A model generated the notes under the pieces. It was given only the letters and a program-made list of their open reading frames with translations, had not been told where the DNA came from and ran no database searches. Below are positions 4,698 to 63,716 of a DNA stretch of 64,000 bases, in pieces. Numbering within the stretch: the stretch's first letter is position 1; each line of letters opens with the position of its first letter. Position numbers and translations under genes: made by a program. Source of the stretch: a virus; IMG/VR virus record IMGVR_UViG_3300027899_000012, positions 26,243-90,242 of that record. One strand, written 5' to 3'.

Positions 4698-5266
4698 TTC
4701 TTGCCCCTCTTCACGCTCGGGTTTTCCATGACGGCCACGATTTTGTCCAGGCGAACGCTCACGTTCCTTCCCACTTCTTCCGCCTCGTACCCCCGGACAT
4801 CATGCAGGATCACCCAGTCGCCGCCGTCGATCGCGCACGACGCGAAGTCAAAGGCTCCCGTGCTCACAATAGCGCGCCATCCCCTCGGCACCGCGGGTCC
4901 TTCGCACGCTGCCAGAAGCTCGACGGGGTAGATGTTCATGCACCGGTCGCAGTGTCCAATGCGCTTAGGGGGCATCTTAGCCCAACAGATAGTGCACTCC
5001 CCGGGACCGGCGAGCACTCGGGTAAGATTACCCGGGTTGCCGACTTGCTGCTCAACGGGCTTGGGGTCTAGGTAAACCTGCACCCACATGCCATCGGTAG
5101 GCAGCTTGGTGCGATCTTTCTGGGCGACGGTGTAGGTGGTTGCGTAGCCGCGCGCCATCCACGTCTCCGCGGATTTGCTCCAGTACTCGTACGAGCCGGA
5201 CTTGTCGGCGGCGCTCCCCCCCTTGCGAATGACCCACACGAGCTTGCTTGTTTGCTTGTTGCTCAC
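4694..5266 (-). CDS. Hypothetical zinc-ribbon protein
   Basis: 190 residues. I prefer GTG 5266, which overlaps the upstream stop as GTGA and has GGGAGG six bases before it, over an in-frame ATG at 5287. A CTICWAKMPPKRIGHCDRC zinc-ribbon-like segment sits mid-protein. No family recognised. Confidence 0.8.
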   Translation of the reverse strand: MSNKQTSKLVWVIRKGGSAADKSGSYEYWSKSAETWMARGYATTYTVAQKDRTKLPTDGMWVQVYLDPKPVEQQVGNPGNLTRVLAGPGECTICWAKMPPKRIGHCDRCMNIYPVELLAACEGPAVPRGWRAIVSTGAFDFASCAIDGGDWVILHDVRGYEAEEVGRNVSVRLDKIVAVMENPSVKRGKK

Positions 5267-5481
5267 GACATGCCTCCCAGTTCCCACAGTCGTTCCAGCG
5301 CCTTTTCAAACCCGTGCTCGTGAAAGTACGCGAGCGCTTCCGCTTGGGCCTCGCAGGACACGACCCGGTTGTGGGGCTCGCGCTTGTTGTGGATTGCCAG
5401 GGCGAGGTCGAGCACCAGGCGTTCGTCCACGCTGGGTTGCTCAACCATCCAGAGCTGCATCTGCCGGGCCTTGTCGGTCAT
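5263..5481 (-). CDS. Small hypothetical protein
   Basis: 72 residues, mostly helical, starting MTDKARQMQLWMVEQ. ATGA overlap with the upstream gene and GTGA overlap with the downstream gene place it firmly in the operon. No motif recognised. Confidence 0.8.
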   Translation of the reverse strand: MTDKARQMQLWMVEQPSVDERLVLDLALAIHNKREPHNRVVSCEAQAEALAYFHEHGFEKALERLWELGGMS

Positions 5482-5678
5482 CGTGCGCTTCCCTTCTCAA
5501 GCGCCACGCGCTCGCGTTCGGAGGTTCGGATCGCGCTGCGAAGCTCGCGAAGGGCTCGCTGGCGGTTTCGCTCCCACCTCGGGTTGGCGTTCGGGCCCTC
5601 GGCCTCGATCTTGTCCACCTCGCTTCGCAGCCAGGCGAGCCCGCGATCGACCGCCTCTACGTTGAGCGCAAGGGCCAT
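5478..5678 (-). CDS. Small helical protein
   Basis: 66 residues starting MALALNVEAVDRGLAWLRSE, charged and helical, probably coiled coil. The start lies two bases after the upstream stop and its stop overlaps the next start. Function unknown. Confidence 0.8.
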   Translation of the reverse strand: MALALNVEAVDRGLAWLRSEVDKIEAEGPNANPRWERNRQRALRELRSAIRTSERERVALEKGSAR

Positions 5679-6363: not shown

Positions 6364-6992
6364 GTTGCGCCTCCCTTCCCACCGGTGGGTAGGAGCATCG
6401 CGCAAATGTACAGGTATCCGTAGGATGCGTTCGGGTTGGCGATCAGGCGCAACCCGGGGCGCTCGATCACGACAAGCCTACGCTCGTCCGGTCGAAGCCC
6501 AAGCTCCTTGATGCGCTTGCGCAGGATGGGAAGGCCCGTGTCGTTGCACCACTGGCACAGCTTGTGAAGCTCGGCCTTGGGGCCAGCGTTCGCTTGCCTG
6601 TCGTGCAGGATGTCAATCATCAGCCCGCCCCGGAAATCATCCTGCAGGATCGCTCGCGCTCCCCATGCCGCGACGCAGGGAACGTCCGGTTGCAGGCCCC
6701 AGGCGAGGCGTTCGATAGGCTCGGGAGCGGGCGCGGTATCGTTGCTCGGCTCGGGGCCGTTCTGATCGTCCTGCAGGTCCACCTGCGAGCACAACCACTG
6801 CCAGTACTCGGGGGTGGGCTCGCCTCCTGCCCGCACACGGATCGCGCACTCGGGCACGCCTTCCATGCACGGTTCGATAGCGCTCAGGCAAGTGTTTTCG
6901 TACTCGACAGCGCTTTCCACGTTCGAGAACCGACCCAGGTAATCCTCACGCGTTGAATCGCTCACAGTGGCCTGCCTTTCCGTGCCGCTCAT
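6360..6992 (-). CDS. Hypothetical protein
   Basis: 210 residues, ATG 6992 (ATGA overlap). Acidic N-terminal half with DYLGRFSNVESAVEYENTC; the C-terminal half looks globular (LPILRKRIKELGLRPDERR). No recognised domain. Confidence 0.8.
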   Translation of the reverse strand: MSGTERQATVSDSTREDYLGRFSNVESAVEYENTCLSAIEPCMEGVPECAIRVRAGGEPTPEYWQWLCSQVDLQDDQNGPEPSNDTAPAPEPIERLAWGLQPDVPCVAAWGARAILQDDFRGGLMIDILHDRQANAGPKAELHKLCQWCNDTGLPILRKRIKELGLRPDERRLVVIERPGLRLIANPNASYGYLYICAMLLPTGGKGGAT

Positions 6993-7423
6993 TTGCTGTC
7001 GTCCTCGTCCGTGCGGTTGCGTTCGGCCTCGTACGCAGCCAGGAACACCTCGTAGGTGATGGTTCCCTCCCGCACCAGCCGGTCGAGGATGTTTGCGGCC
7101 CATCCCTGGCGCTCTCCAATCTCGCGATCGAGGAACATGCGCGGGGTCTCCTGCACAGGCTCCATCGCGTGTACGAGCGAAGCCCACTCCTCCCTGTCGA
7201 TGCGAGCGTCCATGTACGACCAGCTTCCTGTCCAGGCTGACAGGTAGGTGATGTGCTTGCCGTTCGCATCCTTGTCCACGAACCGATCCCGGACGCGCAC
7301 GATCGTGCCCTTGCTCACGACCGGGCATTTGCGCCAGTCGCGCTTCATTCGACGGTCGGGTTCAGGCGTGTGCACGTCGCACGTCAGCACGTATGTCCCA
7401 GGCTTCACGTCCGCGAGTCTCAT
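6989..7423 (-). CDS. Hypothetical protein with leader hairpin
   Basis: 144 residues beginning MRLADVKPGTYVLTC at ATG 7423. I chose this start because the leader hairpin at 7441-7457 and a GGAAGGGA box lie directly upstream; the alternative GTG at 7450 is inside the hairpin loop. The N-terminus resembles a small beta-barrel. Function unknown. Confidence 0.8.
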   Translation of the reverse strand: MRLADVKPGTYVLTCDVHTPEPDRRMKRDWRKCPVVSKGTIVRVRDRFVDKDANGKHITYLSAWTGSWSYMDARIDREEWASLVHAMEPVQETPRMFLDREIGERQGWAANILDRLVREGTITYEVFLAAYEAERNRTDEDDSK

Positions 7424-7440: not shown

Positions 7441-7457
7441 CGCACGCCACGCGTGCG
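7441..7457 (-). promoter_or_regulatory. GTG-triloop leader hairpin
   Basis: Seven-base-pair stem CGCACGC/GCGTGCG around a GTG loop on the coding strand, 17 nt before ATG 7423. The intervening sequence begins GGAAGGGA. One of the recurrent family described in the findings. Confidence 0.75.
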
Positions 7458-7459
7458 AT

Positions 7460-7756
7460 TTACGGTCGTACGATCAGAAGCGCGCTCGCTCCCCGCTCGA
7501 ATTCCATGTGCTCGGCTACACCCGAACGCGCATCCTTCGTTCGGAGCACGCATCCCTGGCGCATGGGGCATCCTTCGGGCCGATCCGCGTCGGCGTACTC
7601 GTCGCTCACAAGGAACGCGACGGCCGGGCTGAAGTAGTCGGTCAGTCGGTCGCCCTGCTCGGCTTCGAGCACCTTGATCTGCTCCCACAGCCGATCATTC
7701 ACCAGGGCGAGCGTGTACTCGCCGTGTCCATGGTCCACCAGTACGATTGCGCTCAT
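7460..7756 (-). CDS. Hypothetical protein
   Basis: 98 residues, MSAIVLVDHGHGEYTLALVN at ATG 7756 with an ATGA overlap to the upstream gene. Likely alpha/beta. Contains CPMRQGC. No family recognised. Confidence 0.8.
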   Translation of the reverse strand: MSAIVLVDHGHGEYTLALVNDRLWEQIKVLEAEQGDRLTDYFSPAVAFLVSDEYADADRPEGCPMRQGCVLRTKDARSGVAEHMEFERGASALLIVRP

Positions 7757-8274
7757 ACGTCCCCCAGCTTCGCCACGTACAGCATCCGATCGATCAGGTT
7801 CTGCACGTCCGCGCTCGTGAACGTGGAGCCCTCGTCCTGGCTCGCGATGATGCGTGCGACGCGAGCGAGCACGATCGCTTGCTGCATTTCGCGCCCGATG
7901 AAACGCCAGCCCTGGCTGGAGCCCACGCTTACCGAAATGCACTGGTCCACGAACATCCGGATCTGCCGGGTGGTGAACCGCGCTCGCTTCTTGGTGGGCT
8001 CGCCCTGCCCGGGAATCACGCTTCCGTCAGGGAGCGTGAAAGGCTCGCGAAGCGCGGCCTGTACAAGCTCCGTGTTGCACCAAATGGGCGTCAGGTTCGG
8101 GAACGCGATCGGCTCCTTGCACTGCGGGCATCGCGTCTTGCCCGGTGGGGCGTACAGCCCATCGTTGTGATCGTGTCCGCTCTGGTTGACCAGCCGCGTG
8201 TTGCAATGCGGGCACGTGACTGCGACCGCCGAGACGTGCATGTTCACGGGCCTGTAGTGAATGGGCTTGCTCAC
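7753..8274 (-). CDS. Hypothetical zinc-ribbon protein
   Basis: 173 residues from GTG 8274 (GTGA overlap; AGGGGA seven bases upstream). CPHCNTRLVNQSGHD and CPQCKEPIAF form a probable N-terminal zinc ribbon; the C-terminal 90 residues are helical with basic KKRARFTTRQIRMFV. A nucleic-acid-binding role is possible but unproven. ATG 8241 is an alternative start. Confidence 0.8.
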   Translation of the reverse strand: MSKPIHYRPVNMHVSAVAVTCPHCNTRLVNQSGHDHNDGLYAPPGKTRCPQCKEPIAFPNLTPIWCNTELVQAALREPFTLPDGSVIPGQGEPTKKRARFTTRQIRMFVDQCISVSVGSSQGWRFIGREMQQAIVLARVARIIASQDEGSTFTSADVQNLIDRMLYVAKLGDV

Positions 8275-8738
8275 AGCACAATCCCCTGTCCGCCGCAGTT
8301 CGGGCACTCGGGGTTCACTTCGATCCAGCCCGTCTCCGTGTTCGGCTCACCGCACCCTTCGCACCCGTGCGTCTCGTTCCAGGCGTTCTGCCCGTCTGCG
8401 TCCGCGTAGGCCACGCACTTGTCCCACGTCTCGGTCGCACACGGGAACGTGATCCCGTGCGGAGGAAACAAGCTGTCCGTGCCCTCGCAGTACCCCTGCA
8501 CGATCACCTGAAACACGCCCTCGCCCTGGGAGTTGGGAATGAACGCGACCGAACAGCCGCACGACGTGGCCTTGTAGACCCGGTTGCGAATGCGCGAGAT
8601 GACAGCCGCCGCTTCGTCGCCCTGGCGCACGTCGGCACCAACGTGTTCCGCGAGGTCATGCAGCCCGCCGATGATCCCTTCGGCCAGCCTGCGGGTTCCG
8701 AACGCGCTACCGAACGTGTCCGCTTTGTGCGTGCTCAT
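8271..8738 (-). CDS. Hypothetical protein with C-terminal zinc knuckle
   Basis: 155 residues, ATG 8738 (ATGA overlap). The C-terminus carries HGCEGCGEPNTETGW and CPNCGGQG, a likely zinc ribbon. No named family recognised. Confidence 0.8.
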   Translation of the reverse strand: MSTHKADTFGSAFGTRRLAEGIIGGLHDLAEHVGADVRQGDEAAAVISRIRNRVYKATSCGCSVAFIPNSQGEGVFQVIVQGYCEGTDSLFPPHGITFPCATETWDKCVAYADADGQNAWNETHGCEGCGEPNTETGWIEVNPECPNCGGQGIVL

Positions 8739-9541
8739 GATCTGCTCCCCAACAGGCCCCGCGCCAGTCCACGCGGGAAGCTGTCATAGTCGCCGTACGC
8801 CTTGTTTTCCTTGAGCGCAGCCTCGACGGGCTCTCGCACCTCCGCGGGCAACTCGTCGCCGTCGTGGTTCTTCCAGCCTGCGTCCTGCAGGTACTTGAGC
8901 AACGCTTCGCACTTGGTGTTGCGAAGGGAGCGCTCTTCCTCGGCGAGCGCCTTTTCCAGCGGCTCTAGCTGCGCTTTGATGGCGCTGATCGCGTCGTGGA
9001 AGGGAGCGATGTTCGCGTGCTCCACGAACCACTCTGTGGCTACTCCGCGCAGCAGCAAGCGCTTCTGCTCCTCTACGAACCTGTACTGGTGTTGGCTCAC
9101 AAGCTCTTGGATCTCGTAGTTCGCTTGCTTCACGACCGCGGCCATAAGCTCGCCTTGCTCGATGCGCTTGCGAAGCTCGGCGGCAGCGTTCGCCCGGCGC
9201 GCAGCCTTCTTGGCCTCGGTCGCGCACCCCCGGTAGTCGAATTGGTCCGTGAGCGTAGTGGCCCAGAAAGCGCGCTTCTGCAAGCCGTTGAATGGGACCG
9301 TGGGCATGACGTTCGCCGCGTCGATCTGCGCGTACACTTCATCGTGCAGCACGCCGCGTTGCTTGCCCCACACGGATGTGCCCCCCTGCGTGGCCTCGTG
9401 GAATTCCACCTCGCCAAAGACGAAGTCTTCGGGCACCAGCTTGCGCACCAGGACCACGTACCGGTCCTCGGGAGCGAAATCCTTGCGCCCGATGGGGGCG
9501 ATGGTGCGAACGACGGGACCGATCGATTCCAATGTGCTCAT
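8735..9541 (-). CDS. Hypothetical coiled-coil protein
   Basis: 268 residues, MSTLESIGPVVRTIAPIGRK at ATG 9541. Residues roughly 110-230 are rich in Lys, Glu, Ala and Arg and probably form a long coiled coil. Preceded by leader hairpin 9558-9572 and AGGAAGG. No family recognised. Confidence 0.82.
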   Translation of the reverse strand: MSTLESIGPVVRTIAPIGRKDFAPEDRYVVLVRKLVPEDFVFGEVEFHEATQGGTSVWGKQRGVLHDEVYAQIDAANVMPTVPFNGLQKRAFWATTLTDQFDYRGCATEAKKAARRANAAAELRKRIEQGELMAAVVKQANYEIQELVSQHQYRFVEEQKRLLLRGVATEWFVEHANIAPFHDAISAIKAQLEPLEKALAEEERSLRNTKCEALLKYLQDAGWKNHDGDELPAEVREPVEAALKENKAYGDYDSFPRGLARGLLGSRS

Positions 9542-9557
9542 GATCCTGAACCTTCCT

Positions 9558-9572
9558 GCCCGCCACGCGGGC
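9558..9572 (-). promoter_or_regulatory. GTG-triloop leader hairpin
   Basis: Six-pair stem GCCCGC/GCGGGC around a GTG loop, 16 nt before ATG 9541 and followed by AGGAAGG. The stem differs in sequence from its relatives but remains fully paired. Confidence 0.75.
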
Positions 9573-9598
9573 TTATGTGCTGCTCGCTTTGTGGGCCG

Positions 9599-10354
9599 CT
9601 AGGTCGGCGGCAACGCGCGCCCCTCCCCGGCCTTCGCGATCTTGCACGCTCCGCACTCGCAGCCTTCGGGGTCGCACAGGTCATGGCCGCAGTCCGTGCA
9701 AAGGGTGTTGGTGTAGGGTTGTACGAGATTGCAACACGCGCACGTTTGAATGCTCGGCTCGGTGATGCTCACCGGCTTTCGCTCGCGCGAAATCCACACG
9801 TGAGCACACTCACCGTTGCTGCACACCAAGTCTCTGCTTTGCCCCTTGTAGCAAGCGGTGCCCTTGAAGCAAATCGGACACGGAAACCCGGGTATTGCTT
9901 CGCGAACGTCGTCTGACCAGCCTCCGCTGTCTGCCCAACCTACGCTCTTTTCGTCCACGCAGAACGCTCCCCATTGCTTGCACAACGCGCACTGCACCTC
10001 GCATCCCAGATCCGTGGACGAGCACGACCGGACCGTTGCGTAGTCGGGCTCGTGCCTGCAGCGCGATTTTTCCAGGCGCCGGCAGGTTGAGCAGTCGCAA
10101 TCCGCCGGATCGCCCAGTTCCACGCGAGCGGGCAGCGCCTCCAATCCTTCCAGCATGGCTCGCTCGATTACCGTGGGCCAGTCGTTCTCGCTTTCGCTGT
10201 CGAGCAACTCGATCAACGCCTCGACGGTCCTGCATTCGAGCAATGCTTTCCGTGCTCGTTCCGCAAGCTCAGCACGAGGCGTCGTCGAGCGTGCGTGCAT
10301 CACAACCGTGTAGGGAACGTGGAGTACGGCCATGCCGTGGGCATTGAATCGCAT
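9599..10354 (-). CDS. Multi-zinc-ribbon protein
   Basis: 251 residues, MRFNAHGMAVLHVPYTVV at ATG 10354 (TGATG overlap). After a helical N-terminus come several Cys pairs: CDCSTCRRLEKSRC, CALCKQWGAFC, CPICFKGTAC, CACCNLVQPYTNTLCTDC and CDPEGCECGAC. At least four zinc sites are likely. Function unknown; nucleic-acid or protein binding would be usual for such arrays. Confidence 0.85.
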   Translation of the reverse strand: MRFNAHGMAVLHVPYTVVMHARSTTPRAELAERARKALLECRTVEALIELLDSESENDWPTVIERAMLEGLEALPARVELGDPADCDCSTCRRLEKSRCRHEPDYATVRSCSSTDLGCEVQCALCKQWGAFCVDEKSVGWADSGGWSDDVREAIPGFPCPICFKGTACYKGQSRDLVCSNGECAHVWISRERKPVSITEPSIQTCACCNLVQPYTNTLCTDCGHDLCDPEGCECGACKIAKAGEGRALPPT

Positions 10355-10755
10355 CACGCACCTTCCTTCGGAACGATCGACAGCGAGTCGATCACGCATT
10401 CCACAACCTGTTGTGCCCATGAGCCGTGCCCACGCTTCACGTCCATCTTGCAGACGCGATCCGGGATCGCTCCCCTTCCCCAATGCCGATCCCACACGAT
10501 CTCTACGATGTACTGGCGCACCGGCGTCCAACCTGCCCTTGCAGCGCGGTCCAGGGCGATGTCCAGCGTCGGACCGTACCCGAAGGCGCCGCCTCCTTCC
10601 TTGCCGCAAGCGATGCTCACCTTCCACTTGGGTTGCGGAATGGGCTCGTTCTCGGGATAGTCGGGAGCGCCCTCCCGGAGCTTGGCCAGGGTCATGGCCG
10701 GAAGCGGGGGAACGTCAGAGAGGCGAGATAGTTCGTGAGCCTTCAGGGCAATCAT
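10354..10755 (-). CDS. Hypothetical protein with leader hairpin
   Basis: 133 residues starting MIALKAHELSRLSDV at ATG 10755. An in-frame ATG at 10797 exists, but using it would translate the leader hairpin 10773-10787, so 10755 is preferred. There is no strong Shine-Dalgarno; AGAAAGC lies 10-16 nt upstream. The C-terminal half resembles an alpha/beta fold. Unknown family. Confidence 0.75.
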   Translation of the reverse strand: MIALKAHELSRLSDVPPLPAMTLAKLREGAPDYPENEPIPQPKWKVSIACGKEGGGAFGYGPTLDIALDRAARAGWTPVRQYIVEIVWDRHWGRGAIPDRVCKMDVKRGHGSWAQQVVECVIDSLSIVPKEGA

Positions 10756-10772
10756 CGTTGCAGTCGCTTTCT

Positions 10773-10787
10773 GCACGCCACGCGTGC
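10773..10787 (-). promoter_or_regulatory. GTG-triloop leader hairpin
   Basis: Six-pair stem GCACGC/GCGTGC with a GTG loop, 17 nt before ATG 10755 and followed by AGAAAGCGA. Confidence 0.75.
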
Positions 10788-10861
10788 GTTCCGTCACTGG
10801 CAGCGCTCGCCGGTTTAACCCGACCAGCGCACGTGCAGGTTAACCGCTGCACCGGGATCGA

Positions 10862-11167
10862 TCACTCGATGACTTGATCCTCCAGCGGGGCGAGATCGTC
10901 GGGCAAGTCCTCATCCTGGGAGAGCAACCACCGCGCAGCTTCTTGCGGTGATACCCACTCCGCATGCGGCAGGGTGCCTTGCCACTGGCTCGTGCACTCC
11001 AGCCAGTATCGACCCTTTCGCGACCGGTGAAGCTTCTGGTGCGTGAACTGGCTACCCGTGGCACGGCTCACGTGGTTGTTGCCGTTCCAACGTGTGCCTT
11101 CAGTCCAGGACTGCGTTGCATTCGCAGTGTCCACAACCGTCCCATCTTCCATTCGGTATCTGCTCAT
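10862..11167 (-). CDS. Small hypothetical protein
   Basis: 101 residues, MSRYRMEDGTVVDTANATQS at ATG 11167, with GGAGG upstream just after the variant hairpin 11180-11194. Trp-rich with an acidic C-terminus. Family not recognised. Confidence 0.8.
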   Translation of the reverse strand: MSRYRMEDGTVVDTANATQSWTEGTRWNGNNHVSRATGSQFTHQKLHRSRKGRYWLECTSQWQGTLPHAEWVSPQEAARWLLSQDEDLPDDLAPLEDQVIE

Positions 11168-11179
11168 CGGTAAACCTCC

Positions 11180-11194
11180 TGCGCACGTGGCGCA
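11180..11194 (-). promoter_or_regulatory. Variant leader hairpin
   Basis: Five-pair stem TGCGC/GCGCA around a five-base loop (CACGT on the coding strand), 12 nt before ATG 11167 and followed by GGAGGTTTACC. Position matches the leader family but the loop differs, so membership is less sure. Confidence 0.5.
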
Positions 11195-11218
11195 TTTGTG
11201 TTTTCGTTGACGGGCAAT

Positions 11219-11695
11219 TCAGTCGTCGCCTTCGTCTCCTTCCTCGTCGTTCTCTTCGTCTGCGTCGGCGGCCCCTTGGTTGTCCGGGTCGTTGGCGTCC
11301 TGGTGTTCCTTCTCGACCGTGGGCCAGTCCGTCTGCTTGACGGAAAGGGCCAGGGCAGCGTTGAAAATCGCCTCGGTGCCAGCGTGCAGTCGCGCCGCGA
11401 GAATCAGGCCCATGAACGCCAAGTCCTCGTTTCCTTCAGACTCATCGTCGGCCGCATTCGCAATCTCGCACGCAACGTCAAACGCTTCGTCGGCCGTGAA
11501 GCTGGAAAGCGGAGTCACAGGCGCGGGCCGTCGCCCGTCGCCTCGTTCCGATCTCCTACCTCCGCCGCCCCTTCGATGTCCTCGCATTTTATCCTCCACA
11601 CGTACAGGTTTGTTTCGCAAGTCGTAGACCTTGACGCCTGCTGATCGCAAGGCTTCGAGCGCACGAGCTTCCCTTCTCTTGGGACAGCCGGCCAC
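11219..11695 (-). CDS. Hypothetical protein with acidic tail
   Basis: 158 residues from GTG 11695, two bases after the upstream stop, with AGGGGGA upstream. Basic N-terminal half (RGHRRGGGGRRSERGDGRR) and a highly acidic C-terminus of Asp and Glu. ATG 11587 is an alternative start that would remove the first 36 residues. No family recognised. Confidence 0.7.
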   Translation of the reverse strand: MAGCPKRREARALEALRSAGVKVYDLRNKPVRVEDKMRGHRRGGGGRRSERGDGRRPAPVTPLSSFTADEAFDVACEIANAADDESEGNEDLAFMGLILAARLHAGTEAIFNAALALSVKQTDWPTVEKEHQDANDPDNQGAADADEENDEEGDEGDD

Positions 11696-11697
11696 GG

Positions 11698-12834
11698 CTA
11701 GAATTCCCCCTGCCCGATGTTCTTGACGGCTGCGGCGTAGGCTTCAACCAAGGTCGTGCCCTTGCCCTTGCCGATCGGCGTGGATTTGTCCGCGATCGTG
11801 GTCGAGTAGATCGTGACCCACGCCTGCCCGTTCTTGCCATGACCGGCCGAAAGCGACCATTTGTGCAGGTCGGCTTCGATCAACGGGTTCCCGATCGGAG
11901 CGGCCTCGACGGGGGCCGGGGTTGCGGGTGCAGTTGCCTTGGTTGTCGTTGTCTCGCTCATGGGTTGCTCGGCTTTCTCGCACGCCACGCGTGCGGTTTC
12001 GTTCGCGGGCACCTCGCCCGCAGGTTGGATTGCCACAATGGGGTAGGGGTGCGAGGCAATGTGCTCCTCGACGGATTCAAAATGCCGCCCGACCGTGCGG
12101 TCAGCGGTGAAGCTCACCGTGGGATAGCTGTGCCAGGGTTGATCGATGGTCATGGGTACGCGCAAGCGTCCCTTGCCGCCGTGCCACGTGAACGTCAGGC
12201 GAGGCGCGCGACCGTTCCATCCCAGGTTCCAATCGATCCGGACGGTCCAATCGCGGCACCGGAGCGAATCCAGGGTGCGAACGACGCTCCGGAGCTTCAA
12301 CGCGTCCGCGTACCAGCAATGATCCTCGAAATCCACGCGTAGGTTTGTTCTGCCCTTGCAGGATGCGAGAATGAGCGCCTTGAACGGTACGCGCTCCAGG
12401 ATCGCGGTCCAGTCATCGTGGATCATGCTCGCCTGCAGATGCGACCGGGCCGCGCAAACGGTGGGGTGGTCGTTCGGAACTGCCTCGCCCCTTTCGTCGG
12501 CTCTCCGTGCGCCACCTTTGACGCTTCCCAGGAACATGCCCGCGAGCTTCGCGTCGTCGATCGCTTGGATCTGCTCTCGCAAACCGTCGGCGCCGGTGTG
12601 CCACCAGTACGCGAAGGCGTCCAGGCTCGCAATCATGGCGTCGCGAATCTCGAACGTGTCGGCGCCTTCCTTCGGAGCGTCCGCGATTCGGTACTCTTCA
12701 TCGTTCGCCTTGACGATCCTCTTTGCCATCTTGACGATCGGAACCAGCATGGCCTCGAATTCGTGGCGCGTGCACGGGGGAACGGGTTCGGGCGTTGCTT
12801 CGCTTGCTTCCACGTCAACGGGTTGGCAACTCAT
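11698..12834 (-). CDS. Hypothetical protein with internal start signal
   Basis: 378 residues, MSCQPVDVEASEATPEPV at ATG 12834 (ATGA overlap). Residues about 140-230 form a compact region with FEDHCWYADALKLRSVVRTL and WHGGKGRLRVPMT. A perfect leader hairpin (11979-11995) plus AGAAAGC lies inside the reading frame just before an in-frame ATG at 11961, so an 87-residue C-terminal product starting MSETTTTKATAPATPAP may also be made. That tail is Ala/Pro-rich then globular. Family unknown. Confidence 0.78.
   Translation of the reverse strand: MSCQPVDVEASEATPEPVPPCTRHEFEAMLVPIVKMAKRIVKANDEEYRIADAPKEGADTFEIRDAMIASLDAFAYWWHTGADGLREQIQAIDDAKLAGMFLGSVKGGARRADERGEAVPNDHPTVCAARSHLQASMIHDDWTAILERVPFKALILASCKGRTNLRVDFEDHCWYADALKLRSVVRTLDSLRCRDWTVRIDWNLGWNGRAPRLTFTWHGGKGRLRVPMTIDQPWHSYPTVSFTADRTVGRHFESVEEHIASHPYPIVAIQPAGEVPANETARVACEKAEQPMSETTTTKATAPATPAPVEAAPIGNPLIEADLHKWSLSAGHGKNGQAWVTIYSTTIADKSTPIGKGKGTTLVEAYAAAVKNIGQGEF
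11979..11995 (-). promoter_or_regulatory. GTG-triloop leader hairpin inside an ORF
   Basis: Seven-pair stem CGCACGC/GCGTGCG with a GTG loop, 17 nt before the in-frame ATG at 11961 and followed by AGAAAGCCGAG. Unlike its relatives it lies within a longer uninterrupted frame. Confidence 0.7.
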
Positions 12835-13049
12835 GGCGCATACCTCACGCATCGGATCTGGAATTCCGCGGCCGCCCCTCCGCCGCCCGTGTACGTTTCA
12901 CCGGGCTCCAAGCGTTGGATCGCGTCCAGGACTTCCGCGAGGTACGTGTCAGCCTGGACGTCGTTCGTCGCGCGCCACTGATCGAGCGTAAACAGGGCCG
13001 GAAAGGCATCGCCTGTTTCCGGGTCTAGTTCCTGGTAAAGCTTTGTCAT
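12831..13049 (-). CDS. Small hypothetical protein
   Basis: 72 residues, MTKLYQELDPETGDAFPALF at ATG 13049 (TGATG overlap). Acidic and helical in the middle, with a Gly-rich stretch near the C-terminus. Unknown. Confidence 0.75.
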   Translation of the reverse strand: MTKLYQELDPETGDAFPALFTLDQWRATNDVQADTYLAEVLDAIQRLEPGETYTGGGGAAAEFQIRCVRYAP

Positions 13050-13273
13050 CACGCCACCAGCCCGATCCGTCGCTCGTACGCAAGGCACGCCGCGCACGTA
13101 ACGACCGGGTTGGCTGTTCCCGCGTCCAGGACACGCCAGGACCGCGGCACGTAGGCGACCCACCCGTGGACCCGGACCACGCGCCCGCAACCATCGCAGG
13201 CCACAACCACGGGCCAGCGCGATGCGTTCGGGGTCCGCTCGCCGGGCTGGACCTTGACGGCTCGGCTACTCAC
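13049..13273 (-). CDS. Small zinc-ribbon protein
   Basis: 74 residues from GTG 13273 (GTGA overlap). CDGCGRVVRVHGWVAYVP and CAACLAYERR form a CxxC...CxxC ribbon. Function unknown. Confidence 0.78.
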   Translation of the reverse strand: MSSRAVKVQPGERTPNASRWPVVVACDGCGRVVRVHGWVAYVPRSWRVLDAGTANPVVTCAACLAYERRIGLVA

Positions 13274-13524
13274 GACACGCCCCCAGGGCTCGGGAAGGAC
13301 ACGCCTTCGACAACCACGGACCCGGGGGGCGGGGTTCCGTCGCGCATGGCGCGCGCGGCGTTCGTCGCGGCTTCGAGCACGGCCACGGGATCGGCTCCGA
13401 TGGCTTGGGCCACCTGGACAAGGCAATGCGTGAGCGCTGCCATGACGTCCGCCGGACCATCGTCGGGGCCGGTCATGACGTTAACCATAATCGGGGGGGA
13501 ACTGGGATCGTTCTGGCTGGACAT
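13270..13524 (-). CDS. Small hypothetical protein, first gene of an operon
   Basis: 84 residues, MSSQNDPSSPPIMVNVMTGP at ATG 13524. Preceded by GGAGG, leader hairpin 13539-13555 and a promoter at 13586-13614. Middle section is helical (ADVMAALTHCLVQVAQAIGA). Heads the leftward sub-operon after a 356-base gap. Confidence 0.78.
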   Translation of the reverse strand: MSSQNDPSSPPIMVNVMTGPDDGPADVMAALTHCLVQVAQAIGADPVAVLEAATNAARAMRDGTPPPGSVVVEGVSFPSPGGVS

Positions 13525-13538
13525 GGTTTCTACCTCCG

Positions 13539-13555
13539 GGATCGACACTCGATCC
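13539..13555 (-). promoter_or_regulatory. GTG-triloop leader hairpin
   Basis: Seven-pair stem GGATCGA/TCGATCC around GTG, 14 nt before ATG 13524. Followed by a normal GGAGG box rather than AGAAAGC. Confidence 0.75.
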
Positions 13556-13585
13556 GTCCGGGCGAACTGCCCGGGTGCAAGGTGG

Positions 13586-13614
13586 ATGGTACGTTGCAAG
13601 GTCGTAACAGTCAA
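13586..13614 (-). promoter_or_regulatory. Sigma70-like promoter
   Basis: TTGACT, 17-base spacer, TACCAT. Transcription would start about 7 bases on, giving a leader of roughly 55 nt with two hairpins before ATG 13524. The spacer contains an operator-like palindrome. Confidence 0.6.
13593..13608. repeat. Operator-like palindrome, copy 1
   Basis: GTTGCAAGGTCGTAAC, an imperfect inverted repeat lying between the -35 and -10 of the promoter at 13586-13614. Confidence 0.5.
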
Positions 13615-13725
13615 GGGGCGATCGCACCTAACCCTGCGCTTTTCTTGCGAAAACGTGTACGTGTTTGCAGGGTGCTTCGCTCGTGCGTAACACGCGCACG
13701 TGTCCGGAAGGGTGGGGTGCGGAGC

Positions 13726-13741
13726 GTTGCAAGGTCGCAAC
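13726..13741. repeat. Operator-like palindrome, copy 2
   Basis: GTTGCAAGGTCGCAAC, a perfect 5-base inverted repeat identical to copy 1 at 15 of 16 positions, 133 bases upstream of it. Confidence 0.5.
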
Positions 13742-13847
13742 AACTTGCGCGCCATGGTCGCCGCGGTCGGAACGGGCGATCGGGTAGGGGGCGAAACATT
13801 GCGCGAAGCGTGCTGCGGCATGGCGGCGATCCCTGGGATGGCGGGAA

Positions 13848-13871
13848 GGGGGAACCCCGAAGGGTTCCCCC
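13848..13871 (-). terminator. Strong hairpin after the 499-residue gene
   Basis: Perfect 10-pair stem GGGGGAACCC/GGGTTCCCCC with a four-base loop, ten bases beyond the stop at 13881. There is no U-run, so it may act as a weak terminator or an mRNA 3' protector. Confidence 0.5.
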
Positions 13872-13880
13872 GGTGGACCG

Positions 13881-15380
13881 TCAGCCGGCGGCCGGCGGGG
13901 TGGAGCCCGATCCGTTGCCTTCGGCAACGGGAGCGCGCGCCTTGAATTTACGCGGCCCGGCCTTGCCCACGCCAAGGGTTCGGAGCGCTTCGCGCGCCCC
14001 GTCAAGCTTTGCGGCGATGGCATCGCGAGCGGTTCCAGACTCCCGGACCGCTTGCCAGTCCGCAACCCCGTCCAGGGTCGCCTTGATTTGTGCAGCCACG
14101 GCCGCGAGCGCCGTATCGTTTGTGACGTCCTTGGCGGCGAGATCCTTGAGCCATCCCTGAAGGCTCGCGATACGGACGTCGCGGAACGCCTTCCGCTTGC
14201 CATCCTCGCCCGGTCGCAGCAGGGCGGTTAGTTCATCGAGCATGGTGCCCGCTTGCACGCGTGCGGCCGCCCGGATTTCGGCCCACGCTTCGCGCTGCTG
14301 TACTTTCATCGCTTCTGCATTTCGGGCCGCCATGGCCGTGTCCAGCCGCTTTGAACCCGTGAGATCCACCCATGTCGTGCTCGCCGTGTAGGACGCAACC
14401 GCGACCGATCGCGGCACGTAATCGGACGCGCGCCATACTCCCGGCAGTTCACGGATCCCGGTCATGGGATCGAGCCGTTCAACGACGTCCCGATCGTCGA
14501 TGACAGCCTGATCGTAAACGTTGCCCAGCGCTTGCACCAGGGCAGGGCGGGTGCTGGTGATATAGTCGGCGGCGAGCGCTTCAACGCGATCCATCAAGGC
14601 GATCGGCACGGGATAGATCCCGCGCAGCTGGGAAGGCAACGCAACGGACCGGATCGCGAGCCGGAACGAATTGTCAGCGGCTTCGATGCTCGCATGCTCC
14701 GGGCAAGCGCTCAGAAGCTTGACGGTCGTTTTTGTGGACTTTTTACCCTTACCGCTTGCCGCCGGATCGGCCGGCGCTTGCGCGTCAAGGCTCGTTACCC
14801 GCACGCGATCCGTGATATCGCGGCCCACGCCAAGGCGGCCGAAATCCGCGCGGAACCATACGACGTTCTTAAACGGATCCGTGATTTCCTTCGGCGCTTC
14901 TGCAAGGGCAGCGCGGAGCGCGGCATCCTCCGCCGTTTCACCGGTTGGGCCTTCGGCGGGGGGGGGCGCATCGCTGGACGGCTCCGCCGTCGCTTCGCTG
15001 GCAGCGGCCGCCACGGCCGCCGCGCCTTCGGCCTGTACCTCGATCGGGTTGCTCGCAACCCGGGCTGGCAAGGGTTCGGGCTCCGGGTCCGCTTCGGGTT
15101 GCGCGACCGGTTCGACCGGTTCGCCTACCGCGATCGATTCGAGCCATCCCACGATCGCGATCCGAGCATCCGCCCGGGTCCCCTTCGGCAGCGCTCCGAG
15201 CAACGCGGCCGCCGCGCCGAACACGGGCAGCGCGGCCGTTGGCATCGTAGCGGCTTCGCGCTCGATTTCTGCCACGATTTCGGCGCGCTTCGATCCGCCG
15301 TCGAAAGTCGCAAGCAACGCATTGGACAGAACCGCATATTGATCAGAGGTGAGGGAGTAACGGGTTGTGCTGGTATTCAT
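13881..15380 (-). CDS. Hypothetical protein of the Ycf46-like ATPase module
   Basis: 499 residues, MNTSTTRYSLTSDQYAVLSN at ATG 15380; the loop GTG at 15407 is not used here because it lies in the leader hairpin. N-terminal helical domain (1-80), a low-complexity Ala/Pro/Glu linker (about 85-160), then a globular domain starting near DPFKNVVWFRADFGRLGVGR and a helical C-terminus. Lies downstream of the AAA+ ATPase, DUF1257-like and DUF2997-like genes. Large unknown partners of AAA ATPases in phages (for example DUF3150) have similar layout; I cannot confirm homology. Confidence 0.85.
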   Translation of the reverse strand: MNTSTTRYSLTSDQYAVLSNALLATFDGGSKRAEIVAEIEREAATMPTAALPVFGAAAALLGALPKGTRADARIAIVGWLESIAVGEPVEPVAQPEADPEPEPLPARVASNPIEVQAEGAAAVAAAASEATAEPSSDAPPPAEGPTGETAEDAALRAALAEAPKEITDPFKNVVWFRADFGRLGVGRDITDRVRVTSLDAQAPADPAASGKGKKSTKTTVKLLSACPEHASIEAADNSFRLAIRSVALPSQLRGIYPVPIALMDRVEALAADYITSTRPALVQALGNVYDQAVIDDRDVVERLDPMTGIRELPGVWRASDYVPRSVAVASYTASTTWVDLTGSKRLDTAMAARNAEAMKVQQREAWAEIRAAARVQAGTMLDELTALLRPGEDGKRKAFRDVRIASLQGWLKDLAAKDVTNDTALAAVAAQIKATLDGVADWQAVRESGTARDAIAAKLDGAREALRTLGVGKAGPRKFKARAPVAEGNGSGSTPPAAG

Positions 15381-15397
15381 GGCTTCGTCTGCTTTCT

Positions 15398-15414
15398 GCC
15401 CGGACACTCCGGGC
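15398..15414 (-). promoter_or_regulatory. GTG-triloop leader hairpin
   Basis: Seven-pair stem GCCCGGA/TCCGGGC with a GTG loop, 17 nt before ATG 15380 and followed by AGAAAGCAGACGAAGCC. Confidence 0.78.
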
Positions 15415-15424
15415 GTTTGTGGGC

Positions 15425-15676
15425 CTATTGCTTGATCCGTTCGGGTTGCTTGGCTTGCTCGCGTACCATGCCCTTGACCACGCGAGCGGAGCTTTCGATC
15501 GTCACGTTCGCCGCTCGCGCAAATGCCGCGATCGCGTCCGCCACGGTCGAATGCGACGTCTGCATTTTTCCGGTCACGATCTTGATCACCCCAGACGGGG
15601 CGATCGTGATTTCGAGCGTATCCGTTGCCACGGTTTCACCGTTCGGGCCGTGTGAATGATTGGAATTGCCGCACAT
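15425..15676 (-). CDS. DUF2997-like small protein
   Basis: 83 residues, MCGNSNHSHGPNGETVATDT at ATG 15676 with GGAGG upstream. The stretch LEITIAPSGVIKIVTGKM resembles the DUF2997 signature (I-F-T-I-x-P-x-G-x-V). DUF2997 proteins are small and often sit beside DUF1257 and Ycf46-type ATPases, as here. Role unknown. The match is by eye only. Confidence 0.7.
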   Translation of the reverse strand: MCGNSNHSHGPNGETVATDTLEITIAPSGVIKIVTGKMQTSHSTVADAIAAFARAANVTIESSARVVKGMVREQAKQPERIKQ

Positions 15677-15684
15677 GGTTGCAC

Positions 15685-16071
15685 CTACCTCCGGAACGTG
15701 AGCTTAACCGCCCCGTCGCTTTGTTTCACCGTGCTCGTATGCTTGAATCCGAACCGTTTGAGCGACACTTGGGCCGCCTTTGTGCCGTACGCCTGTCGGA
15801 TCTCGCCGGTCATGCGCTCGACGTCCGCTTCCGTCCCTTCCTCGATCCGGATCCGCGATCCGGACTGCCGAACGTTCAACGTTGACGTCCCCTTGCGAGC
15901 TACCAGCAAATCGCTGGCCAGCTTGACGTTCCGAGCATGGCCCCGAACGATCGCCCCTTCCTGGTACAGGGTGACGGTCCAACCGTCGCTTTCGAGCGCT
16001 TGCGCCAGCATGGCGCGATCCATCCCGTCCAGGTTGAGCCTGGAAGTCGTGTACTTTGTATCGCATGGCAT
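15685..16071 (-). CDS. DUF1257 (Ycf35)-like protein
   Basis: 128 residues, MPCDTKYTTSRLNLDGMDRA at ATG 16071, two bases after the ATPase stop. The pattern LAQALESDGWTV...GAIVRGH...IRQAYG...FGF...QSDGAVKLTFRR follows the DUF1257/Ycf35 layout (helix, GW, beta strands, QxYx, final DGxxxLxxxR). In plastids, cyanobacteria and some other bacteria the family neighbours Ycf46-like ATPases. Function unknown. Confidence 0.72.
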   Translation of the reverse strand: MPCDTKYTTSRLNLDGMDRAMLAQALESDGWTVTLYQEGAIVRGHARNVKLASDLLVARKGTSTLNVRQSGSRIRIEEGTEADVERMTGEIRQAYGTKAAQVSLKRFGFKHTSTVKQSDGAVKLTFRR

Positions 16072-16073
16072 GA

Positions 16074-17723
16074 CTAAAAATCCTCGCCCGGGTCGGGAGT
16101 TTCCGTAGGGGGGGGCGCAGCAGGAGCCGGAGCGGCCGCCCGAAGCTTGCGACCGGCCGCCGGTGTCATCAGTGCGGCCGCAGACGGCGCGACATACGGG
16201 CGCCCCGTGGACGCGTCCGTATAGCTGTTTTCTGCGGCGATTCGATTGCGCTCGGCTACTTCCTTGCCCACCTTTCGCAAGCTTGCCACGTGCCGCTCCG
16301 CCGCTTGCTGGACGGTGATACCGTAATCGAGCGACTTCTGGATCGCCTGCACGATATCGCGACCCGTCCATCCCTGGTAGAGCGCTTGCGGCGGCCGCTC
16401 GGACGGCGGGAGCCCGAATTTGCGCAACTGGGCAAGCCAGATCCCTTCCAGCTGGGCAGCGTCGGGCACCCCAAAGTAGAACGTCTCAACCATGCGCGAT
16501 GTAAACTCTTCGCGAAATAGCGGGGCGCCGGTGTCATCGTGCGTCCGATTGCAGGTTGCGAACCATAGGTGCACGCCCCCGAACGCTACCAGCCGTGCGA
16601 ACGCTTGCTCCGCGTTTCTTTTTGACGCTCCGACATACTCGTTTTTTAGACTGTCCGTATCCAGCATGACGATCGGGCACTGGGCAAGGCTGGCCACAAC
16701 CCTGGCCAGCGTGGACTTGCCCACGCCCGGCAATCCGCTTGACAGGATCGTGATGTTCCGGAGCACGCGCGGATCCGGGTAAGCAAGGTGAGTGAGCAGC
16801 GACTTGAAAATCCCGGCCGTCGCTCCGCCGTCGCGCGCATCCGACCCGGATTGTACGATTTTTTCGGCTTCATCCAACAACACGACAAGGCGGATCGGGA
16901 TCCGCTTCACTAGATCCCCTGCCCAGTCCAGGACATAGGGTATGCCTGCGAAGTGTTCGGGCCGTTCGGGCTGATCAATCGTGATACCGGGCAGCGCGCC
17001 CAACATTTCGCGGGTCCGTGCGCCGACCACGTCAAGGTCAAGGCGTCCCGTGGCGCACCCCAGGGATCCAGCCTGCGACACTTGGAACCCCGTGAGCGAA
17101 GCCGTGGCCCCGCTTGCCGCCGCAATCGAGCGATCGTCCGCGGGAATGCTATTTTCCGCGCACAAGTCGCGAACGACCCCGGCGCGCTCCGCGTCCGATG
17201 GCAAGGGATCCCGGACAAGCAAGACGTCACCCTGTATCAGGGCAGGGATCCGACCCGGGTCGTTACCCAACCCAATGACCATGGATTCCGATCCGCCCGC
17301 ACAAAGCCAGTCGCGAAGGCGTAGCAGGGCGAGCGCAACCCCGGGTTTGTTCCAGACGTCGTCCGCGTCCCACCATACCAGGACGGACCGGGGCGGGATC
17401 CCGTATCGTCGGGTTGTTTCCGGGTCGATCCAGGGGCGCATAGCCTTGCACGCTTCAAGCGGCTCGCAAAGCATGCTCGGATCCTTCTCGCCGCAGAAGT
17501 CGCCGATCGAATCGCGCGCAGCGTCGTTCAAGGGTTCGAGTCCCCAGGTTGAGTCAAGGTGCCACATGGGGGGGCAGTCCAGACCGCGGGCCGCCGCGTC
17601 GTTGGCGATCGATTCTGCGATCGCCGATTCGGCAGCAGGCTGATCACCCGTGGCGAGGTACGCGATCGGAACGGATACGCCGTACGCTAGGACAATTTGA
17701 GCCGTGAATTTCGGGGCCGTCAT
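16074..17723 (-). CDS. Ycf46-like AAA+ ATPase with permuted Walker motifs
   Basis: 549 residues. N-terminal region (about 55-240) fits the Ycf46 N-domain, with VLVWWDADDVW and ALLRLRDWL. Walker B-like LVVLLDEAEKI (279-289) and its following helix GGATAGIFKSLLTHL come first, then Walker A SGLPGVGKST (329-338), LDTDSL, GASKRNAEQAF and sensor 1 WFATCN (387-392). In normal AAA+ proteins Walker A precedes Walker B. A sensor 2-like GWTGRDIVQAI follows at 451-461. The Pro/Ala tail is disordered. The ATPase likely remodels a protein partner; its neighbours downstream are the natural candidates. Confidence 0.85.
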   Translation of the reverse strand: MTAPKFTAQIVLAYGVSVPIAYLATGDQPAAESAIAESIANDAAARGLDCPPMWHLDSTWGLEPLNDAARDSIGDFCGEKDPSMLCEPLEACKAMRPWIDPETTRRYGIPPRSVLVWWDADDVWNKPGVALALLRLRDWLCAGGSESMVIGLGNDPGRIPALIQGDVLLVRDPLPSDAERAGVVRDLCAENSIPADDRSIAAASGATASLTGFQVSQAGSLGCATGRLDLDVVGARTREMLGALPGITIDQPERPEHFAGIPYVLDWAGDLVKRIPIRLVVLLDEAEKIVQSGSDARDGGATAGIFKSLLTHLAYPDPRVLRNITILSSGLPGVGKSTLARVVASLAQCPIVMLDTDSLKNEYVGASKRNAEQAFARLVAFGGVHLWFATCNRTHDDTGAPLFREEFTSRMVETFYFGVPDAAQLEGIWLAQLRKFGLPPSERPPQALYQGWTGRDIVQAIQKSLDYGITVQQAAERHVASLRKVGKEVAERNRIAAENSYTDASTGRPYVAPSAAALMTPAAGRKLRAAAPAPAAPPPTETPDPGEDF

Positions 17724-17741
17724 TTTCTGTACTCGCTTTCT

Positions 17742-17758
17742 GCGGCGACACTCGCCGC
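17742..17758 (-). promoter_or_regulatory. GTG-triloop leader hairpin at a transcript 5' end
   Basis: Seven-pair stem GCGGCGA/TCGCCGC with a GTG loop, 18 nt before ATG 17723, followed by AGAAAGCGAG. The promoter at 17766-17793 places the predicted transcription start at about the first stem base. Confidence 0.78.
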
Positions 17759-17765
17759 ACCAGGG

Positions 17766-17793
17766 AAGTTAGCACGTGCACCGCACGTGTCAA
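17766..17793 (-). promoter_or_regulatory. Sigma70-like promoter of the ATPase operon
   Basis: TTGACA, 16-base spacer, TAACTT. The spacer contains GTGCACGTGC, related to the dispersed CACGTGCTAA palindrome. Drives the AAA+ ATPase, DUF1257-like, DUF2997-like and downstream genes. Confidence 0.65.
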
Positions 17794-17851
17794 CGGTAAA
17801 ACGTACGCGTGATTTTGGGGAAACCGTGAAACGGTTTCGAGGGTGGGGCGA

Positions 17852-18163
17852 TTATTCGAGCTTGGTCAGCAAATCCGCCAAGGGCGGACCGTCCAACGCG
17901 GGCAACGCTTCAAGGCGCACGTTGAACCCTAGATCGTGCTTGTCGCGAACGTTCAGCGCTTCCGTGAATGCTTCCGCTATGTTGCCCGATTGCAGCAGGG
18001 CAACGAAGCGATCCCATTTGACCGGATCGTCCAGGAGCGCGACGTCCAGAATGCAGGAAAGCGCTTCCCGTTGCGCGCTTTCCTCGGTTGGACAAAGCGC
18101 AACGTGCTGGATTTGTTCGTTGCGGTCCTGGAACACTACAACGAAGGCCACGGGCGCGTTCAT
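17852..18163 (-). CDS. Hypothetical protein
   Basis: 103 residues, MNAPVAFVVVFQDRNEQIQH at ATG 18163 (ATGA overlap). Begins with a beta strand followed by helices; acidic. Unknown family. Confidence 0.78.
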   Translation of the reverse strand: MNAPVAFVVVFQDRNEQIQHVALCPTEESAQREALSCILDVALLDDPVKWDRFVALLQSGNIAEAFTEALNVRDKHDLGFNVRLEALPALDGPPLADLLTKLE

Positions 18164-18348
18164 TTGCCCCCCTTTGCCGCTCGGCTCCACGCAGCGGGAA
18201 GGAACCCACCACCGCGGATCCATTCGTCCATGGCCAGCACTAGCTCTGCTAGTCGATCGGCTACAGGTGTCATACCGCCCGAAGGTTTGCCGTCAACGAC
18301 GGCAGTGGCAAGGCGGACTTGTTCGGCTAGGTTCGCGTCCGGATCCAT
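18160..18348 (-). CDS. Small hypothetical protein
   Basis: 62 residues, MDPDANLAEQVRLATAVVDG at ATG 18348. Helical with a basic C-terminus. Preceded by AGAAAGCGA and an imperfect leader hairpin that overlaps the end of the upstream gene. Confidence 0.75.
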   Translation of the reverse strand: MDPDANLAEQVRLATAVVDGKPSGGMTPVADRLAELVLAMDEWIRGGGFLPAAWSRAAKGGK

Positions 18349-18351
18349 GTT

Positions 18352-18924
18352 TCAATCGCTTTCTGGGGTGCCATGCGCCCCATTGGGTTGTGTGTCTGGC
18401 GCATCGCACATGTTGCGCACCTGCGAAGCATCGCCATTTTTTGCGGAGGGTCTGATCGGAAACATTGCGTCAGGCGCGCTGGCCATCGTGGTCGGCAGCA
18501 CGGGCCAGCGATCCGCGGAGCCCTGCCCGGCGACTCGGCGGACGTCGGCCAGCGTCCGGCCGCAACGCCAGCCTGCAGCCGTCCGGAGGGCTCGCCCGCT
18601 CACCAGGGAGGGGGCGCAACCCGGGCGCACCAGGATGGCCACGACGCGAAGCAACCGGGAGGGCTCGCCGGAGTCAAGCGCTCGCTCGGAAGGTCGGGCG
18701 GACGGATCGGGGTGAGCATCAAGCAGGACAAGCGCCCCCCCGTCAACCAGGGGAAGGACTGCGCCAGTGTCGCGCACCCTGCGCTCCCACGTCGAGGGGG
18801 CGAAAAGGGAGCCATCCGAAATCCCAGCTTGCCCACACGTGAGGGGCAAGCGCACACCATGCGCGGCAAGGACAAGCGCCAGCCTTGCGAGCGGTTCGGG
18901 GTGCGTTGTTCGTTCGGATACCAT
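18352..18924 (-). CDS. Hypothetical protein, first gene of the left operon
   Basis: 190 residues, MVSERTTHPEPLARLALVLA at ATG 18924. It is Arg/Ala-rich and could be judged a shadow frame, but a good promoter (18934-18962) points at its start and its stop lies three bases before the next start. Mid-section has a hydrophobic LPLVDGGALVLLDAHPD. Unknown function. Confidence 0.55.
   Translation of the reverse strand: MVSERTTHPEPLARLALVLAAHGVRLPLTCGQAGISDGSLFAPSTWERRVRDTGAVLPLVDGGALVLLDAHPDPSARPSERALDSGEPSRLLRVVAILVRPGCAPSLVSGRALRTAAGWRCGRTLADVRRVAGQGSADRWPVLPTTMASAPDAMFPIRPSAKNGDASQVRNMCDAPDTQPNGAHGTPESD
18365..18381 (-). promoter_or_regulatory. Imperfect leader hairpin
   Basis: GGGGCGC/GCACCCC stem with one C-A mismatch and an ATG loop, 16 nt before ATG 18348, followed by AGAAAGCGATTG. 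The downstream box is identical to that of the strict members. Confidence 0.55.
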
Positions 18925-31660: not shown

Positions 31661-32190
31661 GAGGTCGCGGTATCCGCGGGCAATTCGTCCGCCATCTCGT
31701 ACTTCGCGAACTTCGTCTTGCTGCCCACGCGTTTGACCACTCCCATCGATTCCAGCCACTTCATCGCCATCCGAACCCGGAACCGGCTCACGCCGAAGCT
31801 CCGAAGGTGATCGTGCGCTTCGGTCAGCGAAACGGGCGCTCCGATCGAAATCATGAAATCTCGAAGCTCGGACCGGATCATGTCCGGAGACGTGTCCTGC
31901 ATGCAGGCAGGCCCGCGAGCGTCCGAGTTTCGGGCTTTGCGGAGCGACTTGGCGACGCGCGCTCGCTGGTAGCCAGGCCCTGACAGGTGATTGCCTCCCC
32001 TGCCCTCCGCCGTGATCGTGAGGCGCACGTCTCCTTCGGCGACCGGAACGGCCGACAGTCCGCGCGCGAACTCGATGTGCAGCTGCGCGTGCATGACCGC
32101 AAGAGAATCAGCCACGTCCGCGGGGTAGTATCGCTCGAATACTTCCTTGAAACCCCGCTTCAAATGCATGTGATTGATTGTGTCTGGCAC
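31657..32190 (-). CDS. Hypothetical protein with winged-helix-like C-terminus
   Basis: 177 residues if it starts at GTG 32190, which has the leaderless spacing; ATG 32169 is an alternative. The C-terminal third (MIRSELRDFMISIGAPVSLT, then FGVSRFRVRMAMKWLESMGV) resembles a winged helix-turn-helix. Possibly a regulator. Confidence 0.72.
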   Translation of the reverse strand: MPDTINHMHLKRGFKEVFERYYPADVADSLAVMHAQLHIEFARGLSAVPVAEGDVRLTITAEGRGGNHLSGPGYQRARVAKSLRKARNSDARGPACMQDTSPDMIRSELRDFMISIGAPVSLTEAHDHLRSFGVSRFRVRMAMKWLESMGVVKRVGSKTKFAKYEMADELPADTATS

Positions 32191-32196
32191 GTGCTA

Positions 32197-63700: not shown

Positions 63701-63716
63701 GTTAGCACGTGCTTAC
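63701..63716. promoter_or_regulatory. Operator-like palindrome
   Basis: GTTAGCACGTGCTTAC, near-perfect palindrome around AGCACGTGCT, upstream of the lipoprotein gene and overlapping a TAACAT -10-like box. Related to the sites inside other promoters. Confidence 0.5.

Follow-up and report, generated by a model that had tools for sequence, protein, structure and literature searches.

Start-anchored GTG-loop hairpins in a probable temperate phage genome: a candidate RNA module for translation initiation at uncoupled genes

The locus considered here raises the question of why hairpins with one and the same loop should stand directly in front of start codons throughout a block of leftward genes, and at which level, DNA or RNA, they might act. 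It lies in a window of 64,000 nucleotides corresponding to positions 26243-90242 of the 90,242-base virus record IMGVR_UViG_3300027899_000012 (IMG/VR), whose remaining 26 kb was also fetched and scanned for hairpins; coordinates below are those of the window. A preliminary description, made from the letters alone, had reported seven leftward genes with GTG-loop hairpins upstream of their starts, and a triloop scan found all seven on the minus strand, with perfect stems of 6-8 bp. The family, which comprises nine members, is real and well beyond chance: its stems stay paired around a common apex, at a conserved distance from the ATG, and the hairpins are associated with genes not coupled to an upstream gene. 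We infer, with about even confidence, that they constitute an RNA module for autonomous translation initiation of uncoupled genes, the apex of which is probably recognised by a trans-acting factor.

Of all triloops closed by a perfect stem of at least 6 bp in the record, GTG occurs most often; seven GTG triloop hairpins were observed on the minus strand, against 0.67 expected and a maximum of four in 200 Markov simulations. Gene starts were taken from a simple codon-usage caller, whose single calls may err, and the starts behind the hairpins match those of the preliminary description; in the 50 nt preceding each predicted start, the loop GTG was found seven times in all and each other loop once. 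The record holds about 50 perfect triloop hairpins of at least 6 bp per strand, and GC-rich sequence so rich in short hairpins might be thought to yield such a series by chance; however, across 3,000 simulated sets of start regions the highest count for any loop was two, against the seven observed, and members held out of the model were recovered, which makes chance an extremely unlikely explanation. The recovery came from the covariance-model search that had been suggested as a check: a model built from the seven sites returned two additional ones in the same position, at 5490-5514 (start 5481; 28 bits, E 1.1e-5) and at 18357-18381 (start 18348; 20.3 bits, E 0.0022). The latter had been listed, at 18365, as a looser member and proved real, while its companion at 11180 (TGCGC-CACGT-GCGCA) was found by neither covariance model and is not a member. 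With the nine-member model run over the whole record, the members score 25-34 bits (lowest 25.3) and nothing else exceeds 11.1, and the 26 kb outside the window added no member. A more permissive model search gave one extra hit, at about 39517-39545 on the minus strand (17.3 bits; GGCGAGA-ACGTGC-TCTCGCC, followed by AGAAAGC), which was rejected since it lies antisense in the RecE-like gene, has a 6-nt loop and has no ATG at the right distance. Rfam covariance models gave no match in the window at the gathering score, and the family is apparently undescribed.

In an alignment of the nine sites 98.4% of the cells are paired and six of the seven stem pairs are altered on both sides with pairing kept; the covariation score is 0.849 vs. 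0.18 in shuffles, and sliding of the partner strand abolishes the pairing signal, in support of the compensatory variation noticed in the preliminary description. Named by their start codons, and all on the minus strand, the hairpins are those of 5481 at 5498-5514 (CGAGCGC-GTG-GCGCTTG; missed previously), with five Watson-Crick pairs beside the loop and then G-U and C-G; 7423 at 7441-7457 (CGCACGC-GTG-GCGTGCG, then GGAAGGG); 9541 at 9558-9572 (GCCCGC-GTG-GCGGGC, then AGGAAGG); 10755 at 10773-10787 (GCACGC-GTG-GCGTGC); 11961 at 11979-11995 (CGCACGC-GTG-GCGTGCG), where the ATG is internal to an open reading frame (ORF) at 11698-12834; 13524 at 13539-13555 (GGATCGA-GTG-TCGATCC, then CGGAGG); 15380 at 15398-15414 (GCCCGGA-GTG-TCCGGGC); 17723 at 17741-17759 (TGCGGCGA-GTG-TCGCCGCA); and 18348 at 18365-18381 (GGGGCGC-ATG-GCACCCC), with one C-A mismatch. 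The six to seven stem pairs first reported hold for six sites, the stem at 17723 having 8 bp (TGCGGCGA). All nine have G-C as the second pair from the loop; the pair that closes the loop is C-G in six and A-U in three, and the fixed apex reads G[C/A]GUG[G/U]C (GMGUGKC), the loop being AUG once, at 18348. In the folds predicted for short stretches of the leader, the hairpin belongs to the minimum-energy structure at seven of the nine sites.

The loop lies 24-28 nt upstream of the ATG at all nine sites and the stem abuts the ribosome-binding stretch; at the seven sites first described, the stem ends 14-17 nt upstream of the ATG, where 14-18 nt had been given. The gap to the preceding gene ranges from overlapping to 356 nt among hairpin genes, and a spacing anchored to the start with a variable upstream gap points to translation rather than transcription. 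The RNA-level nature of the element, as first proposed, is well supported: the stems keep their pairing although both arms change, the apex does not vary, and the spacing follows the start codon, not promoters or upstream stops. Palindromes near starts are often operators, and N4 promoters too combine a 3-nt loop with a short stem; a role at the DNA level, as a palindromic repressor site or as an N4-type hairpin promoter for a virion RNA polymerase, is nevertheless quite unlikely, since the stems differ yet stay paired, unlike repressor half-sites, the sites are anchored to the ATG, no ORF of the size of the N4 virion polymerase (about 3,500 aa) occurs in the record, which may be incomplete and whose longest ORF has 1,479 codons and an integrase match, and another palindrome, GCACGTGC, makes a more plausible operator. 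The record contains six copies of it, of which the gene calls place five between genes; it is found at 17772-17779, 10829-10836, 32187-32194 and 63705-63712 of the window, and also in L004, upstream of the window. At 17723 it is flanked by TTGACA and a -10-like TAACTT and forms part of a 7-3-7 inverted repeat, an arrangement like that of a repressor operator. Intrinsic terminators were rejected (no terminator-like minus-strand hit at any hairpin; AGAAAGC, GGAAGG or GGAGG follow the stems), as was a mobile repeat, the stems being different and the position fixed.

Within the block at 5.2-18.4 kb a hairpin precedes seven of the eight uncoupled genes and one of the 17 coupled ones (P = 1.3e-4), where uncoupled genes are those that come first or follow the preceding gene at a distance of over 30 nt, and coupled genes those closely spaced or overlapping, the nested 11961 being excluded from the count. 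The region from -14 to +3 is predicted to be more open at hairpin genes than at others (0.54 vs. 0.42, P = 0.01). The strongest rival explanation is a purely structural leader element acting with no trans factor, by insulation or stabilisation of the leader (5' end protection, shielding of the ribosome-binding site from upstream sequence, or stacking on the Shine-Dalgarno helix). The greater openness of the start regions fits it, as do stems ending 0-1 nt upstream of the Shine-Dalgarno-like stretch, and at 17723 the pair TTGACA-16-TAACTT would place the 5' end near the hairpin base; on the other hand, such a module would not require an identical apex GMGUGKC at nine sites, and several hairpins lie between operon genes, where no 5' end is expected, so that we regard it as possible rather than probable. 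A processing site, at which a nuclease would cut the long leftward transcript just upstream of uncoupled genes, would account for the intercistronic position, the constant apex and the recurrence within one block, and early transcripts of T7-like phages are indeed processed at hairpins; it would not, however, need a spacing tied to the start codon, one site (11961) lies within an ORF and the 6-8 bp stems are on the short side for RNase III, all of which makes processing unlikely. Finally, the loop could itself be the start codon of an N-terminal extension or leader peptide, being GTG at eight sites and ATG at one, with two leader frames that end at the gene-start ATGA, but the frames are mixed (four in frame vs. 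five out), no Shine-Dalgarno motif lies upstream of the loop and the homologue of the 7423 protein in Myxococcus phage Mx1 begins at the ATG, and this explanation is very improbable.

The heptamer AGAAAGC directly follows the stem at five of the nine sites, namely at 10755 (10766-10772), 11961 (11972-11978), 15380 (15391-15397) and 17723 (17735-17741, overlapping the final stem base), the four noted in the preliminary description, and at 18348 (18358-18364), in each case on the minus strand. AGAAAG is about 16-fold enriched upstream of starts, and its end lies 10-12 nt from the ATG vs. a median of 6 nt for GGAGG. The stretch had been taken to stand instead of a GGAGG box; it is present as described, but it may itself be a Shine-Dalgarno motif in a shifted register, pairing with CUUUCU, because pairing with an assumed host 16S tail ...CCUCCUUUCU would place AGAAAG about 10 nt away.

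According to the translational reading that we favour, each hairpin would be an RNA structure of the mRNA leader directly upstream of the ribosome-binding site, and together they would form a multi-gene family of cis-elements through which genes lacking translational coupling to an upstream neighbour begin their own translation. With the stem sequence free to vary, the apex GMGUGKC would most simply be the recognition face for a single trans-acting factor, which might be an RNA-binding protein, of phage or host origin, or part of the 30S platform, and which would set the translation of the nine cistrons jointly. As to the direction of control we lean towards activation, because the start is left uncovered by the hairpin, the start region is predicted to be somewhat more open than at other genes and five of the nine sites carry the non-canonical AGAAAGC. 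A conserved loop on a variable, paired stem at starts, as found here, is a feature to be expected of a protein-bound translational operator, and the hairpin may be bound by a phage protein. Most known cases of phage translational control involve single operators; nine hairpins of conserved structure, each anchored to a start within one block, would amount to a compact RNA regulon spanning several genes, and would also offer natural RNA tags or insulators with interchangeable stems.

Several points weigh against this reading. The pairing percentage is not independent, since pairing was itself the criterion by which the sites were found, and one stem sequence is common to three sites, which may be copies; for these reasons the independent evidence is the common loop, the common position and the held-out hits. 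In isolated leader pieces the minimum predicted at 7423 and 5481 is a competing fold. Strong Shine-Dalgarno motifs precede two of the nine hairpin genes vs. 61 of 118 others, a difference that is not significant (P = 0.16), none of the proteins scanned matched a known RNA-binding family, and the element is confined to one genome, no relative with the hairpin having been found.

Searches of viral contigs with the AAA ATPase, the 499-aa protein, the helicase, the 7423/Mx1 alignment and RecT returned no relative, nor did searches of GTDB genomes with the ATPase and the 62-aa protein; a DNA pattern with the GCACGC stem gave no matches, and other DNA patterns gave one unrelated chance match and eight chance matches without stems. 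By tblastn of the block proteins in phages and plasmids just Tunturi_3 (25%, AAA ATPase) and Mx1 (40%, start 7423) were recovered, and the hairpin is absent from both records. The preliminary description had named a lack of further hits in the genome or its relatives as a sign against the element; further hits exist in the genome, and none in these two distant relatives.

Among known systems, the operators of the MS2 coat protein and of T4 gp32 and gp43 are short structured RNAs near a start, bound by a phage protein. They are mostly single and overlap or neighbour the start to repress, whereas the nine sites of the present family stand upstream of the ribosome-binding site and leave the start uncovered, and their binder is conjectural. 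Stabiliser stem-loops of the ompA type, at the 5' terminus, need no loop sequence; they share with the present hairpins a leader stem-loop upstream of the ribosome-binding site but not the constant apex or the intercistronic position of several sites. Com of phage Mu is believed to remodel a start-masking structure. It is a phage RNA-binding protein that activates translation of the mom mRNA by binding it (PMC6483171). Com has one target, whereas the present family has nine and its hairpins do not mask the start, and MS2-type operators and Com are best taken as functional models, not relatives.

The analogue proposed in the preliminary description, the start-associated sequences (SAS) of cluster K mycobacteriophages, resembles the hairpins in position only, being a repeated element at the starts of a subset of non-structural genes, with extended start-associated sequences (ESAS) whose inverted repeats lie upstream of the ribosome-binding site. 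SAS are a conserved 13-bp sequence located 3-7 bp from the start and ESAS are 17-bp inverted repeats of conserved sequence with spacers mostly of 4-13 bp, the departures of which do not support RNA pairing, and their authors favour DNA-binding sites (Pope et al., 2011; PMC3203893). The hairpins, in contrast, combine variable sequence, kept pairing and a fixed apex, and with arms of 6-8 bp and a loop of 3 they do not match ESAS; the SAS consensus GGGATAGGAGCCC gave four matches with two mismatches vs. 1.67 expected, none at hairpin sites. With stems that vary yet remain paired, this family is a case in which a start-associated phage motif lends itself to tests as RNA.

One site could bear on the nature of the binder. 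The ATG at 11961, previously taken as a gene start, exists in frame but is internal to the longer ORF 11698-12834, which shows a coding score along its whole frame that the other two frames lack. A hairpin start within a continuous ORF suggests an in-frame nested gene (11698-11961, minus strand), and if the hairpin works there a separate C-terminal product of 87 aa would be made. Its single-sequence structure model is beta-beta-beta-alpha (mean predicted local distance difference test score, pLDDT, 69), and the nearest structures include RNase III and double-stranded RNA-binding domain (dsRBD) proteins in both libraries, none of them significant (E 0.014 or worse); sequence searches with the product gave no match backing a dsRBD identity. 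That it may be a dsRBD-like RNA binder is therefore offered as a lead only. A phage translational regulon in which one phage protein, possibly this product under its own control, would bind GMGUGKC hairpins at the nine starts and set the uncoupled genes of the block jointly seems rather unlikely.

The virus is probably a temperate phage, because proteins of the record match a tyrosine integrase domain, a RecE-like exonuclease, RecT, a ParB-like protein, DNA methyltransferases and endolysin-like proteins; a DNA helicase was also matched. In the 1,479-codon ORF (L005, 1432-5871) the tyrosine integrase domain spans residues about 250-570, and the remainder has no family match above the cut-off. 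A myxobacterial host would be a guess from the single Mx1 match, that of the 7423 gene (6989-7423, 144 aa; about 40% identity to a hypothetical protein of that phage). The hairpin genes, on the minus strand, further comprise 5263-5481 (72 aa), 8735-9541 (268 aa), 10354-10755 (133 aa; structure modelling unsuccessful, pLDDT 35.5) and 13270-13524 (84 aa), all with no assigned function, 13881-15380 (499 aa, without family match), 16074-17723 (549 aa, AAA ATPase, PF00004, with its distant 25% match in Tunturiibacter phage Tunturi_3) and 18160-18348 (62 aa, phrog_865, labelled HNH endonuclease though merely 62 aa). A promoter-like TTGACT-17-TACCAT (13614-13586) lies upstream of the 13524 hairpin, and between the two a second hairpin, CCGGGC-AGTTC-GCCCGG, was seen by eye at 13558-13574. 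At 15425-17723 the AAA ATPase is followed by a DUF1257-like protein (15685-16071, under the curated cut-off) and then by a small protein, forming a tight run 3' of one hairpin.

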